Shown: positions 45,518 through 59,599 of the stretch, in pieces | How positions within the stretch are numbered: the stretch's first letter is position 1 | How the letters are laid out: each line of letters opens with the position of its first letter | DNA from: Bradyrhizobium stylosanthis | Lineage (GTDB): Bacteria > Pseudomonadota > Alphaproteobacteria > Rhizobiales > Xanthobacteraceae | Direction of reading: 5' to 3' | Length of the DNA stretch: 64,000 nt | Assembly: GCF_001641335.1 (NCBI RefSeq) | Contig: NZ_LVEM01000002.1 | Coordinates: 1,219,663 to 1,283,662, forward strand | The notes under the pieces: generated by a model | Seen by the model: the letters and a program-made list of their open reading frames with translations, nothing else | Database searches by the model: none | Told to the model about the DNA's origin: nothing | Program-made: the position numbers and the translations under genes

Positions 45518-50251
<4,734 letters not shown>

Positions 50252-50742
50252 TGTTCCAATCCTCTCCATGCGGCAAGCTGCCTCACCGCTCTCTTCGGCG
50301 CACCTTGGGCGTTCCGCGGCACCCGCCTCTGGGTCACCGCTCGTCCGTTGCGAGCCGCATTTTCTTAAATTCAGGCCAAGGCGTTCTTCGTCCCCGAGAA
50401 CGGCTTTGCCTGTTGCCTTCTTGTGCTCGAAAGCACCGACTTTCGTTGCAATCCGTATGCCGGAACTGCAAAGAAAATTAAGACAGTCTTCCTGTCCTAA
50501 CCAGCACCTTGCCAAATTTTTGTCTATCACACAAGCGCGTGGAAGTCCCGATTCCCGATATGTCAATCAATCGCTTTCCGAAAGTTGCGCGGCCCCGGTT
50601 TTGAAGCAAACGCGCCCTGATCCGGCCCTGCAGACGCCGAAATCACCGATGAAGCTTCGGATCGGCCCTTCGGAAGGCGCGCCACGCCGCGAGAAGCGAA
50701 AGAGCGCGCCTCCGTTCGGGGTCTGACAGGAGCGTCTCGACC

Positions 50743-53365: not shown

Positions 53366-53499
53366 TAGCGGCCTGCACGAAGGTGATATGGGTGGAACGA
53401 GACGGCGTTCAAGAGGGCGGCAACAGCGCCTTTTCGGCGCTCCCGCCCCTTGATTTGCAGCACTTGAGTACAGCACTTGGCGCCCAAGCACTCCCGATC

Positions 53500-54447
53500 A
53501 TGACGCTGGTCTCGATTCCCTCCAACCCCGTTCCCGAAGACGTCGTCAGCGGTACGATCAAGACCCCTGATGGTGTCGAGCTGCGCTTTGCGCGCTGGGC
53601 GCCGCCGGCGAACCGCAAGGGCACGGTCTGCGTCTTCACCGGGCGCAGCGAGCAGATCGAGAAATATTTCGAGACCGTGCGCGATCTGCGCGACCGCGGC
53701 TTCGCGGTGGCGATGATCGACTGGCGCGGGCAGGGGCATTCCTCGCGCCGCCTGCGCGATCCGCGCAAGGGCTATGTGCGCGACTTCTCCGATTTCGAGA
53801 TCGACGTCGAAGCCTTCGTGCAGCAGGTGGTGCTGCCGGACTGCCCGCCGCCCTTCTTCGCGCTCGCCCACTCCATGGGCGGTACGGTGATGCTGCGCGT
53901 GGCGCATTCCGGCAAGCGCTGGTTCGACCGCATGGTGCTGTCGGCGCCGATGATCGACCTGCCCGGCCGCTCCACCTCGTTTCCGGCACGCGCGCTGCTG
54001 AAGACGATGCGCCTGATGGGGATGGGCGGCCGCTATGTCCCCGGCGGCAGCGACCGCATCACGGGGCTCGATCCCTTCATCAACAATCCCCTGACCAGCG
54101 ATCCCGTCCGCTATGCGCGCAACGCCGCGATCCTGGAGGAGGATCCGACGCTCGGCCTGGCGTCACCCACGGTCGCCTGGGCCGACACCGCCTTCCGCGC
54201 CATGCACACCTTCAAGGGCATGAACTATCCTTCCGAGATCCGCCAGCCGATCCTGATGCTGGCGGCCTCGAACGACGCCGTGGTCTCGACCGCGGCGATC
54301 GAGGAGTTCGCCTATCATTTGCGCGCCGGCTCGCATCTCGTGATCGCGGGCGCCAAGCACGAGATCCTCCAGGAGCAGGACCGCTACCGCTCCCAGTTCT
54401 GGGCCGCCTTCGACGCCTTCGTGCCGGGTACGCCGCTGTTCAAGTGA
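53500..54447 (+). CDS. Alpha/beta hydrolase, lysophospholipase type
   Basis: A 315-aa cytosolic enzyme. The start was set at MTLVSIPSNP; the frame runs to 53383 without a site. Core motifs: VAMIDWRGQGHSSR (G-x-G region), FALAHSMGGTVMLRVAHSG (nucleophile Ser in HSMGG), LAASNDAVVS (Asp), and VIAGAKHEILQEQDRY (His). PldB/monoacylglycerol lipase type. Divergent from hspA. Confidence 0.88.
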   Translation: MTLVSIPSNPVPEDVVSGTIKTPDGVELRFARWAPPANRKGTVCVFTGRSEQIEKYFETVRDLRDRGFAVAMIDWRGQGHSSRRLRDPRKGYVRDFSDFEIDVEAFVQQVVLPDCPPPFFALAHSMGGTVMLRVAHSGKRWFDRMVLSAPMIDLPGRSTSFPARALLKTMRLMGMGGRYVPGGSDRITGLDPFINNPLTSDPVRYARNAAILEEDPTLGLASPTVAWADTAFRAMHTFKGMNYPSEIRQPILMLAASNDAVVSTAAIEEFAYHLRAGSHLVIAGAKHEILQEQDRYRSQFWAAFDAFVPGTPLFK

Positions 54448-54585: not shown

Positions 54586-57366
54586 CTACAGCGTCTTCAG
54601 ATACTCGATCAAATCGTAGCGCTCGTTGTCATCCCTAAAGATGCGGCCGATCACGCCGTCGCGTTTCGGCTCGCCTTCCTTGCGCTCGAAGGAATGGCCG
54701 AGCACGCTGTTGCCCTGGATCAGCCGGCCGTCGGATCCGGTCATCAAGAACTGCGTCTCGCCGGTCTTGCAGCGCTCGTCGGCGGTGACCGCGAAGCCGA
54801 CCGTCACGGGATCATAGTCGCGGCGGCCCATGCAGAATTTCTGCGGGCGCTCGTTCTGCGGCTTCAGCAGCCAGTACAGCGAAGGCACCGAGCCGTTGTG
54901 CAGGTAGGGCGCGGTGGCCCAGATGCCGTTCAGCGGCCGCGCGCGGTAGCGCGGATCGGGCGCGGGATTGAGGCAGTTCTTGCGCGCCATGTTCCACAAT
55001 TTCGCCCGTTCCGCGTCCGGGACGTCCTGGTCGACCATCCATTTCTGGGCGACGAGATCGACCACGGTCATGAGCCCGAGCGCATAGACCATCTCGGTCG
55101 GCGAGGTGCTCGCGGTCGGGATATCGCACTGCCACCATTTCTGCAGGTCCGACGTATTCACCTTCAGGAAGGCGGGCACGTCGACGATCCGCTTGCTGAG
55201 CACGAGGGACTGTTCGGGATCGGTCTTGATCTCCTTGAGCGGGATCGTGACCGCGTTCAGGACCTTGCTGTCGCCGCTTGTCTCCCAATGCCCTGAGGAC
55301 CAGAAGGCCGGGGTGTCGACGGCGGGCAAATGGCACCCCGAGCACATCTCGGCGTAGATCTTGCGGCCGTTCTCGACCTTCGTCTGGTCGATCCGCCAGG
55401 CGTCACCGAGGATTTGCGACGGCCATTTCGGCGACAGCAGGCCGCCGAACTTCGGACCTTTGGCGGGATCGGGCGCCCTGAACGGATCGGGTCCCCTGAG
55501 CATGTCCTCGATCCAGCCGAGCGTCCTGATATCGACGGAGGAGGTCCACAGCCGCTTCTCAGGATAGGCGTCGGACAGATTGAGCAGGGCGGTCACGCCC
55601 AGGGCCTCGCCGGCGTTCCGGATCAGCGGCTGCTCGATGGAGGCGTCGTACTGGGCGAATTTGAACCACGGCACCGTCCAGATCGCGGGATAGCTGACCG
55701 GCGCGTCCTGGGCATGCAGGTTCTTTTCGAATCCCTTGACCCCGCTCAAGGCGAGATCCTGAGCGAACACCTGATTGCCGATGCGATTGAGGGCGTCGAG
55801 GCGGCCGAAGCCTTCCTCCGTGTCCTGTTGCCACCTGCCGTCCCAGGTCTTCTTGTGCTCGATCGTGTTGTTGTACCTGGTCTGCCAGTCGAGCAGGAAA
55901 TCCATGGTCGCGGAGAGCTTCTGCTTGAGCGCCTTGCGGTCCGCCTTGCTTGCTTCGCGGCCGAGCACGCGATCGGCAAAGCGGTCGAAGCGGAACGGGA
56001 CGTACACCGTGTAGGCGATCGACAGCCCGGTCACGAGCTCGAGCTTCTTCAGATCGGTCATCGCCGGGCCGCCGTCGAAGCGCACGTCGATGCCCTGATA
56101 CTGGATATGGCCGGTATGGCAGGCCGCGCAGGTCAGCCCGATCTTGTCCTCCTCGCGACGGCCGGTCGCGGGATCGACCACGCCGGTCATCCGCGCGAAA
56201 CCGACCGGCAGGCCGTCGACATTCTCGGCCGGCGTCCACCTTGATGACCAGTCGCCCGCCTGCGTCGTCTCATAGACGTTGGCGTAGCCGAACTGGCGCA
56301 GCGTGGCCGTGTCGGTGTTGATCGATTTCGGGCTCGGGATGAAGCCGAAGCGCTCGAGATAGGCGCTGTCCTTCAGCATGCCGGGCTGCGAGACCAGGCG
56401 AAGGCGCGGCTGCTCCAGCGCCATGAACCATTCATAGGGCACCGGGAAGGTCGCGGTGCCCTGGCTGGCATGGTGGAACCAGTGCCGGTCTTTCAGCGAC
56501 CAGTTCTGCTCGAGCCAATAGGCTGCATTGGTCTGCGGAAGCGTGGGCAAGGGCGGCGGCAGGAGCTGCGCGAGGATGCCCTTCTGCGGCAGCATGGCGC
56601 GGACCTGGTTGGGGAATTCGGCGACCGCAACGAGGGCGGCAAGAACGAGCGCCAAAGCGCCCGCCGTGAGGCCGAGCGCCCAGCGAAACCTGAGCGCGCA
56701 GGTCGACAGCAGCGGCTGCGATACGATCCGCTTGCTGATGCGATCGGGGAAGCTGCGCTCGTTGAACAGCGTGCGGACGTCGTCCACGCTGAGATAGCGC
56801 TCCTCGGGCTTGTCCTTGTCCCCCTTGCCCATGATCTTCAGCAGGATCGGCCATTCGAATTTCATCAGCAGCGGGTAGTACCAGCGCGCGCTACTCCCGG
56901 CGCGCTTGAGATTGTCCTGCATGAACGTCTTGATTTCCGCGGCGTTGAGGCCGGTCTCGCTGATGCCCGTATTCGGGTCTTTGTAGCTGCGGCCGAAGCT
57001 CGCCAGCCGGGCAATCTCGTCCTCGTTGACCTTGCCGTCGACGCCGAGGATGCGCGAGCCGGCGCCGAGCTTGTCGAGGGGCCCGCCGCGCAATGCATCG
57101 AGCTGCGCGCCGGACCACCAGCTCTTCAGGATATGACTGAAGCCATTGGCGATCATCGCGACGCCGCGGGTCTGGATGCGGGCCGACGTCTTCTTCAGCC
57201 CCGTCTCGCCGCTCGCATTCGCAATGGTCTGCGACAGCGTGTTGAGCGGGACGGTGCCGCCGTCGACGAAGCCTTCGCCGACGAGGCCGCGCAGGAATGG
57301 GCAGGGATTGTCCGGCGAGACCTGGATCGAGGGGGCGAGGGGCGGCTTCGAAGCGGGATCATGCAT
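54586..57366 (-). CDS. Membrane-anchored di-heme cytochrome c / peroxidase-like protein with a PCP-motif N-terminus
   Basis: A 926-aa protein. The cytosolic N-terminal part (1-225) holds DNPCPFLRGLVGEGFVDGG (PCP at 21-23), and an EF-hand-like DGKVNEDEIA at 110-119. One TM follows (about 228-250), then a large periplasmic domain with two c-type heme sites, CAACH (413-417) and CSGCH (675-679). The PCP pattern resembles that of heme-thiolate peroxygenases. The cytochrome part is the RoxA/di-heme peroxidase type (NGSVPSLYWLLKP). Electron donor and substrate unknown. Confidence 0.83.
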   Translation of the reverse strand: MHDPASKPPLAPSIQVSPDNPCPFLRGLVGEGFVDGGTVPLNTLSQTIANASGETGLKKTSARIQTRGVAMIANGFSHILKSWWSGAQLDALRGGPLDKLGAGSRILGVDGKVNEDEIARLASFGRSYKDPNTGISETGLNAAEIKTFMQDNLKRAGSSARWYYPLLMKFEWPILLKIMGKGDKDKPEERYLSVDDVRTLFNERSFPDRISKRIVSQPLLSTCALRFRWALGLTAGALALVLAALVAVAEFPNQVRAMLPQKGILAQLLPPPLPTLPQTNAAYWLEQNWSLKDRHWFHHASQGTATFPVPYEWFMALEQPRLRLVSQPGMLKDSAYLERFGFIPSPKSINTDTATLRQFGYANVYETTQAGDWSSRWTPAENVDGLPVGFARMTGVVDPATGRREEDKIGLTCAACHTGHIQYQGIDVRFDGGPAMTDLKKLELVTGLSIAYTVYVPFRFDRFADRVLGREASKADRKALKQKLSATMDFLLDWQTRYNNTIEHKKTWDGRWQQDTEEGFGRLDALNRIGNQVFAQDLALSGVKGFEKNLHAQDAPVSYPAIWTVPWFKFAQYDASIEQPLIRNAGEALGVTALLNLSDAYPEKRLWTSSVDIRTLGWIEDMLRGPDPFRAPDPAKGPKFGGLLSPKWPSQILGDAWRIDQTKVENGRKIYAEMCSGCHLPAVDTPAFWSSGHWETSGDSKVLNAVTIPLKEIKTDPEQSLVLSKRIVDVPAFLKVNTSDLQKWWQCDIPTASTSPTEMVYALGLMTVVDLVAQKWMVDQDVPDAERAKLWNMARKNCLNPAPDPRYRARPLNGIWATAPYLHNGSVPSLYWLLKPQNERPQKFCMGRRDYDPVTVGFAVTADERCKTGETQFLMTGSDGRLIQGNSVLGHSFERKEGEPKRDGVIGRIFRDDNERYDLIEYLKTL

Positions 57367-57564: not shown

Positions 57565-59361
57565 TCAGGATTCGGCGGCGCGTTTGACGTCGCTCTGGAC
57601 CAGGGTCAGCTTGCCGAGCGGCACACCCGCATTCAGCAGTCCTGCGCGGTAATGCGCGACGTCCTCGGCCCGCTTCCAGTGGAAATTGCGCAAGTGACGG
57701 TCGACGTTGAGGGTCGGGTAGTTGCTCATCAGCACCCCGGCGGCCTCGTCGGCTTCCGCGGTCCGGCCCAGTTGCGCCAGGGCCGCGGCGCGGATCGCCA
57801 GCGCCTGCATGTGATTGGGGTTGATGTAGAGCTGCTCGCGCGCCCATGACAGGGTCGCGTCATATTGGCGCAACAGGTAATGGCTGAAGGCGTTCAGCGT
57901 GGCCCACTGGTAGCGCGGGTCGCTGTTGTCGCGCTGCGCCGCCATCGAGAACAGCTCGATCGCCTCGCGATGCTCGCCGATCACGAAATGGCAGATGCCG
58001 AGCACGCCGCGTGCGCCATTGTCGTAAGGGTTGAGCGCGACCGCACGCTTGGCGGCGTCCATCGCGGCCTCGTAATGTCCCTCCATCGCGTGGGCCCAGG
58101 ACAGGATCGAGAACGCGAAGGAGGAGCGCGGGTCGAGCCGGACGCTGGTCTCGGCGAGGTTCATCGCCTCGGCCCACATCTCGCGCGTGCCTTTGACCCA
58201 GCCGAACTGGATGCTCTGGATCTGGATCGTGGCGAGATAGGCATGCGCGATCGACAGTTTGGGATCGACCTTGATGGCCTCCCGGAACAGGTCGACGGCG
58301 GCGGCCAGATCCTCCTTGGTCTGCCGGTAGTAATGCGACAGCCCCTTGAGGAAGCGATCCCAGGCGGTGACGTCGGTCGAGAGCCGCGCCGGCGCCGAGG
58401 CCTCGGCGCGGACGATCTCGGTGGCGATCGCCGCGGACAGGTTGGTGGTGATCTCGTCCTGCATCGCGAAGAGATCGCCGATGTCGCGGTCGTAGCGCCC
58501 GGTCCAGAGCTGCTCGCCGGTCTCCGGCGCGATCAGCTCCGCCGTGACGCGGATCTTGGCGCCGGCGCGCCGCACCGATCCCTGGATCAGATAGGTCGCG
58601 TCGATCTCGCGCGCGATCAGCCGCGTGCTCAGATTCTTGCCCTTGAAGGCGAAGGTCGAGTTGCGGCTCAGCACGCGATAGAAGGATTGCAGCGACAGCG
58701 CGTGGATCAGATCCTCGGTGAGGCCGTCGGAGAAATATTCGTCCTGGGCGTCGCTGAGATTGGCGAAGGGCAGCACGCCGACGATCGCCGTGCGGTACTG
58801 CTGCGACAGCGCCGACGCCTCCCTCAGCTCGGGCGCCAGCGCCGGCGCCCCTTCGGGCGTCCAGGTCCAGACCCCGATCGCATCCTTGATGTTCTTGAAG
58901 CGATGGTTGCCGGCGTCGGTCAGCGGCACGGTGAGATGCTTGCTGGCCTCGCGATAGGCCTTGGCCGAAATCGCGAAGCCGCCGGGGCTCGACACCGATT
59001 CCATGCGGACGGCGATGTTGACATCGTCACCGAACACCTCGTCCTCATCGGCTATGACGTCGCCCATGTGGATGCCGAGCCGGAACTGCATCGCGCGGTC
59101 CGCCGGCAGATGGTGGTTGCGCTCGGCCATCAGCGTCTGCATCGCGACCGCCGCCTCGGTGGCTCCGACGATGGAGGCGAACTCGAGCAGGAAGCCGTCG
59201 CCGGTGTTCTTCACGACGCGGCCGCCGTGATTGAGAATGATGGGGTGGATCGCGGCGCGATGGGCCTTGAAGGCGGCATGGGTGCCGGCTTCGTCGCTGC
59301 CCATCATGCGCGAATAGCCGGCGACATCGGCGCAGACAATGGCGGCCAGACGTCTTTCCAT
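57565..59361 (-). CDS. Class III adenylate cyclase with TPR domain
   Basis: A 598-aa protein. The start was set at ATG 59361 (a TTG 15 nt upstream could extend it). The cyclase domain has metal Asp12 (VCADVAGYSRMM) and Asp55 (NTGDGFLLEF), plus the transition-state NxxxR pair in DDVNIAVRMES. A TolB-like link (VLPFANLSDAQDEYFSDGLTEDL) follows, and then TPR repeats (PKLSIAHAYLATI, YEAAMDAAKRAVALNPYDNG, and more). This architecture is common and expanded in Bradyrhizobium. cAMP is the likely product. No TM; cytosolic. Confidence 0.9.
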   Translation of the reverse strand: MERRLAAIVCADVAGYSRMMGSDEAGTHAAFKAHRAAIHPIILNHGGRVVKNTGDGFLLEFASIVGATEAAVAMQTLMAERNHHLPADRAMQFRLGIHMGDVIADEDEVFGDDVNIAVRMESVSSPGGFAISAKAYREASKHLTVPLTDAGNHRFKNIKDAIGVWTWTPEGAPALAPELREASALSQQYRTAIVGVLPFANLSDAQDEYFSDGLTEDLIHALSLQSFYRVLSRNSTFAFKGKNLSTRLIAREIDATYLIQGSVRRAGAKIRVTAELIAPETGEQLWTGRYDRDIGDLFAMQDEITTNLSAAIATEIVRAEASAPARLSTDVTAWDRFLKGLSHYYRQTKEDLAAAVDLFREAIKVDPKLSIAHAYLATIQIQSIQFGWVKGTREMWAEAMNLAETSVRLDPRSSFAFSILSWAHAMEGHYEAAMDAAKRAVALNPYDNGARGVLGICHFVIGEHREAIELFSMAAQRDNSDPRYQWATLNAFSHYLLRQYDATLSWAREQLYINPNHMQALAIRAAALAQLGRTAEADEAAGVLMSNYPTLNVDRHLRNFHWKRAEDVAHYRAGLLNAGVPLGKLTLVQSDVKRAAES

Positions 59362-59599
59362 CTTCCGGGGCTCCAAGGGGACTTGGTAAGGGATCTGGGA
59401 CCGGCCACGGCGTGGCAGTCACCTCGAATCCCGCATTTCAAGTAACCCTGCCTTTATAAAGCAGATGCGGCCGAGTGAAAGTATGAACCGCATTGCAAAA
59501 TCGAGGTAAATCCTACGCAATCCCGGCGGTGGACGGCGGCAGCCGAACCGACTAAGCGGAATTTGAGACCGCCCGGACGGGCGAGAGGGGGCCGCTTGC

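Follow-up and report, generated by a model that had tools for sequence, protein, structure and literature searches.

Relatives of the heme-thiolate unspecific peroxygenases (UPOs) were reported in bacteria for the first time only in 2026, in "Discovery of Bacterial Unspecific Peroxygenases" (Biochemistry, 30 June 2026; PMC13394420). The passages of that paper that bear on the present locus describe a set of 188 bacterial UPO (BUPO) sequences, with 13 proteins spanning six clades expressed, 10 of them active, and three, from clades I, III and V, treated in depth. Clade VI, found almost only in Bradyrhizobium, holds nearly 70% of the sequences, is handled in a side note, and has the same architecture as the protein considered here; we found no statement in the main text naming a clade VI construct among those expressed. 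Beside PMC13394420, we recognized no paper on a peroxygenase-cytochrome fusion among those listed in the literature searches. As clade VI is already reported there, the architecture of the fusion is known in print, and the novelty that an earlier note on this DNA claimed for the combination does not hold. On the cytochrome side, PA2077 of Pseudomonas aeruginosa, a fatty-acid dioxygenase that makes hydroperoxides, is grouped with the rubber oxygenase RoxA in PMC4496055, which also treats the FadCcp fatty-acid enzymes.

The window, a stretch of 64,000 nucleotides from Bradyrhizobium stylosanthis, belongs to a genome of 8.8 Mb in 22 contigs whose close relatives are Bradyrhizobium. A single open reading frame (ORF), 57366..54586 on the minus strand, runs from an ATG start through 926 codons to its stop and, as the earlier note had described, has a PCP-motif domain at its N-terminus, then a single hydrophobic helix, then a domain with two c-type heme motifs (Table 1). 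This is the clade VI architecture of BUPO domain, transmembrane (TM) region and di-heme CCP domain. Within its own genome the whole protein has one match only, its own locus, and the CytoC_perox family likewise has one match, in the same protein. Relatives along the length of the protein were found at 76 loci, with 63-90% identity in the best segment. One of these loci (L029) runs off its contig. In B. sacchari (L064, 6001-8738) the fused gene is broken, its frame stopping after 383 residues, and at G889:C7:90562-93296 separate frames of 404 and 550 aa encode the N domain and the cytochrome part, respectively. An entry titled Frankia sp. RB7 (L018) has the fused gene at 84% identity and groups among Bradyrhizobium rows in trees; it is probably mislabelled.

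Only one stretch of the protein exceeds 1.6 in a 19-residue Kyte-Doolittle scan, inside residues 227-255 and between the two halves, and no signal peptide is apparent by eye in fused or stand-alone copies. The c-type hemes are attached outside the cytoplasm. Given this and the single hydrophobic segment between the halves, the N half should be cytosolic; the predicted topology is thus a cytosolic N domain and a periplasmic C domain.

Table 1. Features of the fused gene and its conserved neighbours, in window coordinates.
Feature	Coordinates	Strand	Residues	Description and basis
Whole gene	54586..57366	-	926 aa	N-terminal peroxygenase-type domain, TM helix and C-terminal di-heme cytochrome
N-terminal UPO/chloroperoxidase-fold domain	56719..57330	-	13-216	Predicted cytosolic; AlphaFold2 (pLDDT 76.6) and structural comparison
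PCP motif	57298..57306	-	21-23	Cys22 proposed heme ligand; invariant in 58/58
GPLDK	57070..57084	-	95-99	Asp98-Lys99 as putative equivalent of Glu-His in the UPO EHD motif
Glu171	56854..56856	-	171	Proposed distal acid-base residue; aligned on HspUPO Glu180 (MAFFT)
Single transmembrane helix	56617..56688	-	about 227-250	Hydropathy scan
Di-heme cytochrome c peroxidase-like domain	54592..56502	-	289-925	Predicted periplasmic; NF040606
First heme c motif, CAACH	56116..56130	-	413-417	
Second heme c motif, CSGCH	55330..55344	-	675-679	
His891	54694..54696	-	891	Falls on His641 of RoxA, an axial ligand there, in the profile alignment to 4b2n
Upstream neighbour, nucleotide cyclase with TPR repeats	57565..59376	-		Pfam; same place at 76/76 fused and 12/13 stand-alone loci
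Downstream convergent neighbour, alpha/beta hydrolase	53383..54447	+		Same place at 72/76 fused and 12/13 stand-alone loci

No Pfam or NCBIfam family matches the N domain convincingly. Peroxidase_2 (PF01328), the profile against which the earlier note would have checked it, is absent among the Pfam matches of the protein up to E 10, and a PF01328 search of the genome was empty, with controls likewise without a match there. Compared by sequence with the PDB, the domain gave chance matches only (EspG5 at E 0.2, glutamate racemase at E 0.19). When the N-domain profile was aligned with four fungal sequences in hhalign, the best alignment fell on the PCP block, with E 0.0011 but a probability of 20%; with three of the four, the score of 25.6 exceeded all 100 column shuffles, the highest of which reached 23.0. 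The global mode of hhalign gave nothing useful for the N domain and fungal UPOs. By sequence alone, the likeness to fungal UPOs is demonstrable for the PCP block only.

Structure prediction points to a likeness over most of the domain. After a genus-wide search had supplied divergent relatives, four of 62 candidate N domains were dropped, one truncated (L183) and three running into the TM helix (L016, L063 and L076), leaving a set of 58. The AlphaFold2 model made from these 58 relatives has a pLDDT of 76.6 and a pTM of 0.77, against a pLDDT of 54.5 for an earlier 14-sequence model that returned 12 meaningless structural matches and no UPO. With the 58-sequence model, the first six Foldseek matches are fungal UPOs at probability 0.93-0.99 and E 0.03-0.22, the best E being 0.03 and no match reaching 0.001. 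In VIA-align, rows 1-25 are all UPOs or chloroperoxidase (Z 13.5-10.5, rmsd 3.0-3.5, 171-182 residues aligned) and the next row falls to Z 5.1, though a Z near 13 can come from a common helical arrangement alone. Given the clean drop in Z, the coverage of most of the domain and the PCP block common to both, relatedness to UPOs is the better reading, and the model supports a UPO/chloroperoxidase fold for the N domain. The proposal in the earlier note that the PCP motif marks a heme-thiolate peroxygenase or chloroperoxidase-type domain is supported by this predicted fold and by the account of clade VI in PMC13394420; the structure prediction that it had named as a test gave a fold not unrelated to the members of PF01328. 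The EF-hand-like loop that it had also read in the domain was not borne out. The segment GVDGKVNEDEI (108-118) fits the second half of an EF loop only, positions 1 and 3 being absent, is replaced by DANAKVHESEI, DQHAVVHEDEI or SVEGVVNEDEI in relatives, and has no EF-hand family among the Pfam matches up to E 10. There is a weak structural likeness to EF-hand proteins in the C-terminal part of the N domain (residues 82-205 or so), at Z 5.1 or less, with aequorin among the Foldseek matches.

The PCP block (residues 19-32, DNPCPFLRGLVGEG) has PCPF at positions 21-24, and Cys22 is invariant together with both flanking prolines across the 58 diverse N domains, stand-alone copies included. Asp98-Lys99 is also invariant in 58/58, and Glu171 is the only invariant Glu in the set. 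A literal EGD/EHD distal acid motif is absent, as had been noted before. MAFFT sets Asp98 and Lys99 on the UPO EHD motif, with Lys99 on His110 of HspUPO, and also pairs LFNERSFP of the N domain with LFENERLP of HspUPO. The pairing of Lys99 with His110 is attractive because PMC13394420 reports that certain BUPOs have Lys or Arg instead of His110. Conserved matches to fungal UPOs outside the PCP block did not rise above shuffles, 25 of 200 being as good when 20 of the 58 sequences were used, and the alignment, which is suggestive, makes Lys99 and Glu171 candidate counterparts of the UPO distal pair. The Mg site of fungal UPOs (Glu-His/Gly-Asp-x-Ser) is absent from the N domain, and invariant GPLDK.GxGS stands there.

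The C domain reaches 445.6 bits against NCBIfam NF040606, CytoC_perox (di-heme-cytochrome C peroxidase), where the cut-off is 150. It is assigned to that family by score, and its peroxidase activity is putative. Pfam RoxA-like_Cyt-c matches residues 807-844. Of 289 genomes sampled across the class, 17 match the 926-aa protein and, among the matches listed, all but that of its own genome start at residue 261 or later. One simple relative (L079) has, judged by eye, a short N-terminus and one hydrophobic anchor ahead of the same cytochrome. Given these start points and the layout of L079, the N domain was probably joined to an ordinary anchored cytochrome.

The N domain is carried by 241 of 265 Bradyrhizobium genomes, and at least 34 of these 241 have it as a stand-alone gene (open frames of 212-267 residues). 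Outside the genus, a phylum-wide sample of 398 genomes gave no match at E <= 0.001. At E <= 1 there were matches in 14 genomes of other genera, and no PCP-bearing relative was seen in the four of these matches that were inspected (L195, L196, L198 and L203). A match at E 5e-4 over 58 columns in a different genus of the same family (G692) was taken as chance, no N-domain relative being visible by eye among the ORFs. The plasmids gave no match to the divergent stand-alone domain L184 as query. BUPO clades I-V were not recovered in the searches outside Bradyrhizobium, as expected at low identity; the one scan of genome contigs took a single protein, not a profile, as the query. In a genome without the N domain, a 247-aa frame (L224, G830:C174) is 57% identical to the fused C domain and is perhaps the remnant of a lost fusion.

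Fused and stand-alone genes occupy the same locus. Both neighbours are present in the same order and orientation at 72 of the 76 fused loci, the hydrolase being missing from the matches at the other four, in three cases through truncation of the locus; at 12 of the 13 stand-alone loci examined the N-domain gene sits between the same cyclase-TPR and convergent hydrolase genes. The hydrolase is lysophospholipase-L2-like, yet below the cut-off of that family. Farther along the window, a 1682-aa ORF (45518..50566, minus strand), which by eye we take to be the glutamate synthase large subunit, is overlapped by a 1563-aa open frame (45677..50368, plus strand), probably the mirror frame of GC-rich coding DNA. 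In the tree of the 58 N domains the stand-alone rows fall at two places: 11 form one clade (node value 98) nested among fused rows, and L184 is long-branched and lies apart from them. This divergent domain (genome G964) is 41% identical to that of the window, and neither usual neighbour was found at its locus. With the tree rooted, uncertainly, by L184 and the midpoint, it is simplest to suppose that the fused form is the older one and that the stand-alone clade lost the cytochrome half once.

All 34 stand-alone genomes examined (13/13 and 21/21) have a CytoC_perox match over the cut-off elsewhere in the genome, split between two places in one of them (G843); among genomes without the N domain, 8 of 20 have one. 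As the stand-alone genomes are nearly one lineage, these are not 34 independent observations and no significance test applies. On the tree, 30 of the 32 placed CytoC_perox proteins of stand-alone genomes form one clade (node value 100), which also includes a row from G947, a genome that lacks the N domain. The two others (L220 of G964 and L226 of G958) fall outside it, G958 having a further high-scoring copy that was not placed, and eight other copies from fused genomes were placed, none of them in this clade. The trees leave out the split match of G843 and further copies, among them L218 (internal stop); L216 is absent from the 32-protein tree and joins the same clade in another. L218 (G384:C15:8390-10042) is a separate high-scoring copy (E 7.6e-148) with an internal TGA in a fused genome. 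The co-occurrence of a stand-alone N domain with a separate CytoC_perox protein is consistent with the two modules acting together.

We consider it probable that this clade VI BUPO combines a cytosolic, peroxide-using heme-thiolate domain of UPO/chloroperoxidase fold, one TM helix and a periplasmic di-heme CytoC_perox/RoxA-like domain that work as follows. Heme b would sit on Cys22, and Glu171, helped by Lys99, would split H2O2 or an organic hydroperoxide, yielding a ferryl species that could oxidize an organic substrate close to the inner leaflet. In the periplasm, the outer module would reduce peroxide, or oxidize a hydrophobic substrate, and exchange electrons with the cytochrome c pool. 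Common to both modules would be a membrane-permeable peroxide and a membrane address, with no electrons passed between them. An electrical connection between the two sides of the membrane is unlikely with a single helix that carries no heme site; we therefore favour two peroxide-handling enzymes that have the same membrane address and either H2O2 or lipid hydroperoxides in common. Enzymatic support comes from kin, as the sections of PMC13394420 on other clades show activity for their BUPOs; the published BUPOs have a CO Soret band near 441-443 nm.

It is unlikely, though worth weighing first, that the C domain is a RoxA/FadCcp-like dioxygenase, not a peroxidase, making periplasmic or membrane lipid hydroperoxides that the peroxygenase half uses or disposes of. 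RoxA (4b2n, E 4.2e-20) is the only solved relative found at E <= 0.001 with a C-domain profile of 15 relatives, and the grouping of the hydroperoxide-making PA2077 with RoxA (in that part of PMC4496055), the suggestion of the authors of PMC13394420, in its remarks on co-substrates, that organic peroxides may be preferred by BUPOs, and the conserved lysophospholipase-like gene next door all speak for it. However, the RoxA, RoxB and RoxC equivalog models give the C domain 36.1, 51 and 40.3 bits where their cut-offs are 1000, 900 and 900, the curated family over whose cut-off it does score bears the name of a peroxidase, the part of RoxA that contains Trp302 and Phe317 did not align with the C-domain profile, and the membrane is predicted to lie between the two halves. 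At PWFKFAQYD (residues 566-574), most fused proteins have Phe or Tyr at a site occupied by Trp (WVQ) in many relatives. Matches to this [IL]W-6-x-.Q site at fused loci have F or Y in 121 of 133 cases and W in 12, some genomes being counted twice. The site may have a bearing on electron passage between the c hemes; its equivalence to RoxA Trp302 is putative, and we do not claim that fused proteins have lost the inter-heme Trp.

Less likely again is a non-enzymatic N domain, a sensor or scaffold of UPO fold, heme-binding or heme-free, that regulates or anchors the cytochrome. The restriction of the N domain, by sequence and within the samples searched, to Bradyrhizobium and the nucleotide cyclase gene conserved upstream would suit such a role, but the catalytic set that one would expect, Cys22, Lys99 and Glu171, shows no variation even in stand-alone copies, and BUPOs of other clades are active enzymes in the assays that PMC13394420 describes. 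We give little credence to a further scheme, a two-sided hydroperoxide machine in which a periplasmic RoxA/FadCcp-like half would make membrane lipid hydroperoxides and the cytosolic peroxygenase half would use them as oxidant, split into two genes in one Bradyrhizobium lineage; if true, one chain would couple oxylipin production outside with oxygenation inside. The transmembrane electron path of the earlier note, from a cytosolic thiolate heme to periplasmic c hemes or back, has in its favour two predicted heme modules in one chain and is highly improbable, with one hydrophobic helix, CXXCH in the C domain only, the membrane between the hemes, and N domains that also occur without a C domain at the same locus.

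In its stand-alone form at the shared locus, the N domain offers a ready-made single-domain construct for expression and genetic work, and the pattern of fused and split genes points towards its acting jointly with a di-heme cytochrome in a major nitrogen-fixing soil genus. Compared with known systems, the N domain resembles the fungal short UPOs MroUPO (5fuk/7zbp) and HspUPO (7o1r) and chloroperoxidase (1cpo) in fold, at Z 13.5, 12.6 and 10.5, and in the PCP block. Sequence identity in the structural comparison is 11-18% to the short UPOs and 14% to 1cpo. Unlike the fungal UPOs, the window protein has Asp-Lys at the putative place of EHD and no apparent secretion signal, and is fused to a TM helix and a cytochrome. 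The C domain shares with RoxA (4b2n), in register, the two CXXCH motifs, an HNGSVP segment and the histidine of a C-terminal GH.F. It lies over the NF040606 cut-off, and other bacteria, among the matches listed in the class sample, match only from residue 261 on; unlike in those relatives, a peroxygenase domain here precedes the cytochrome. With clade VI, as far as PMC13394420 describes it, we found no difference: the window protein comes from the same genus, has the same order of BUPO domain, TM region and di-heme CCP domain and the same PCP motif, lacks the fungal Mg site as clade VI does, and has in Lys99 a candidate for the basic residue that stands there in place of His.
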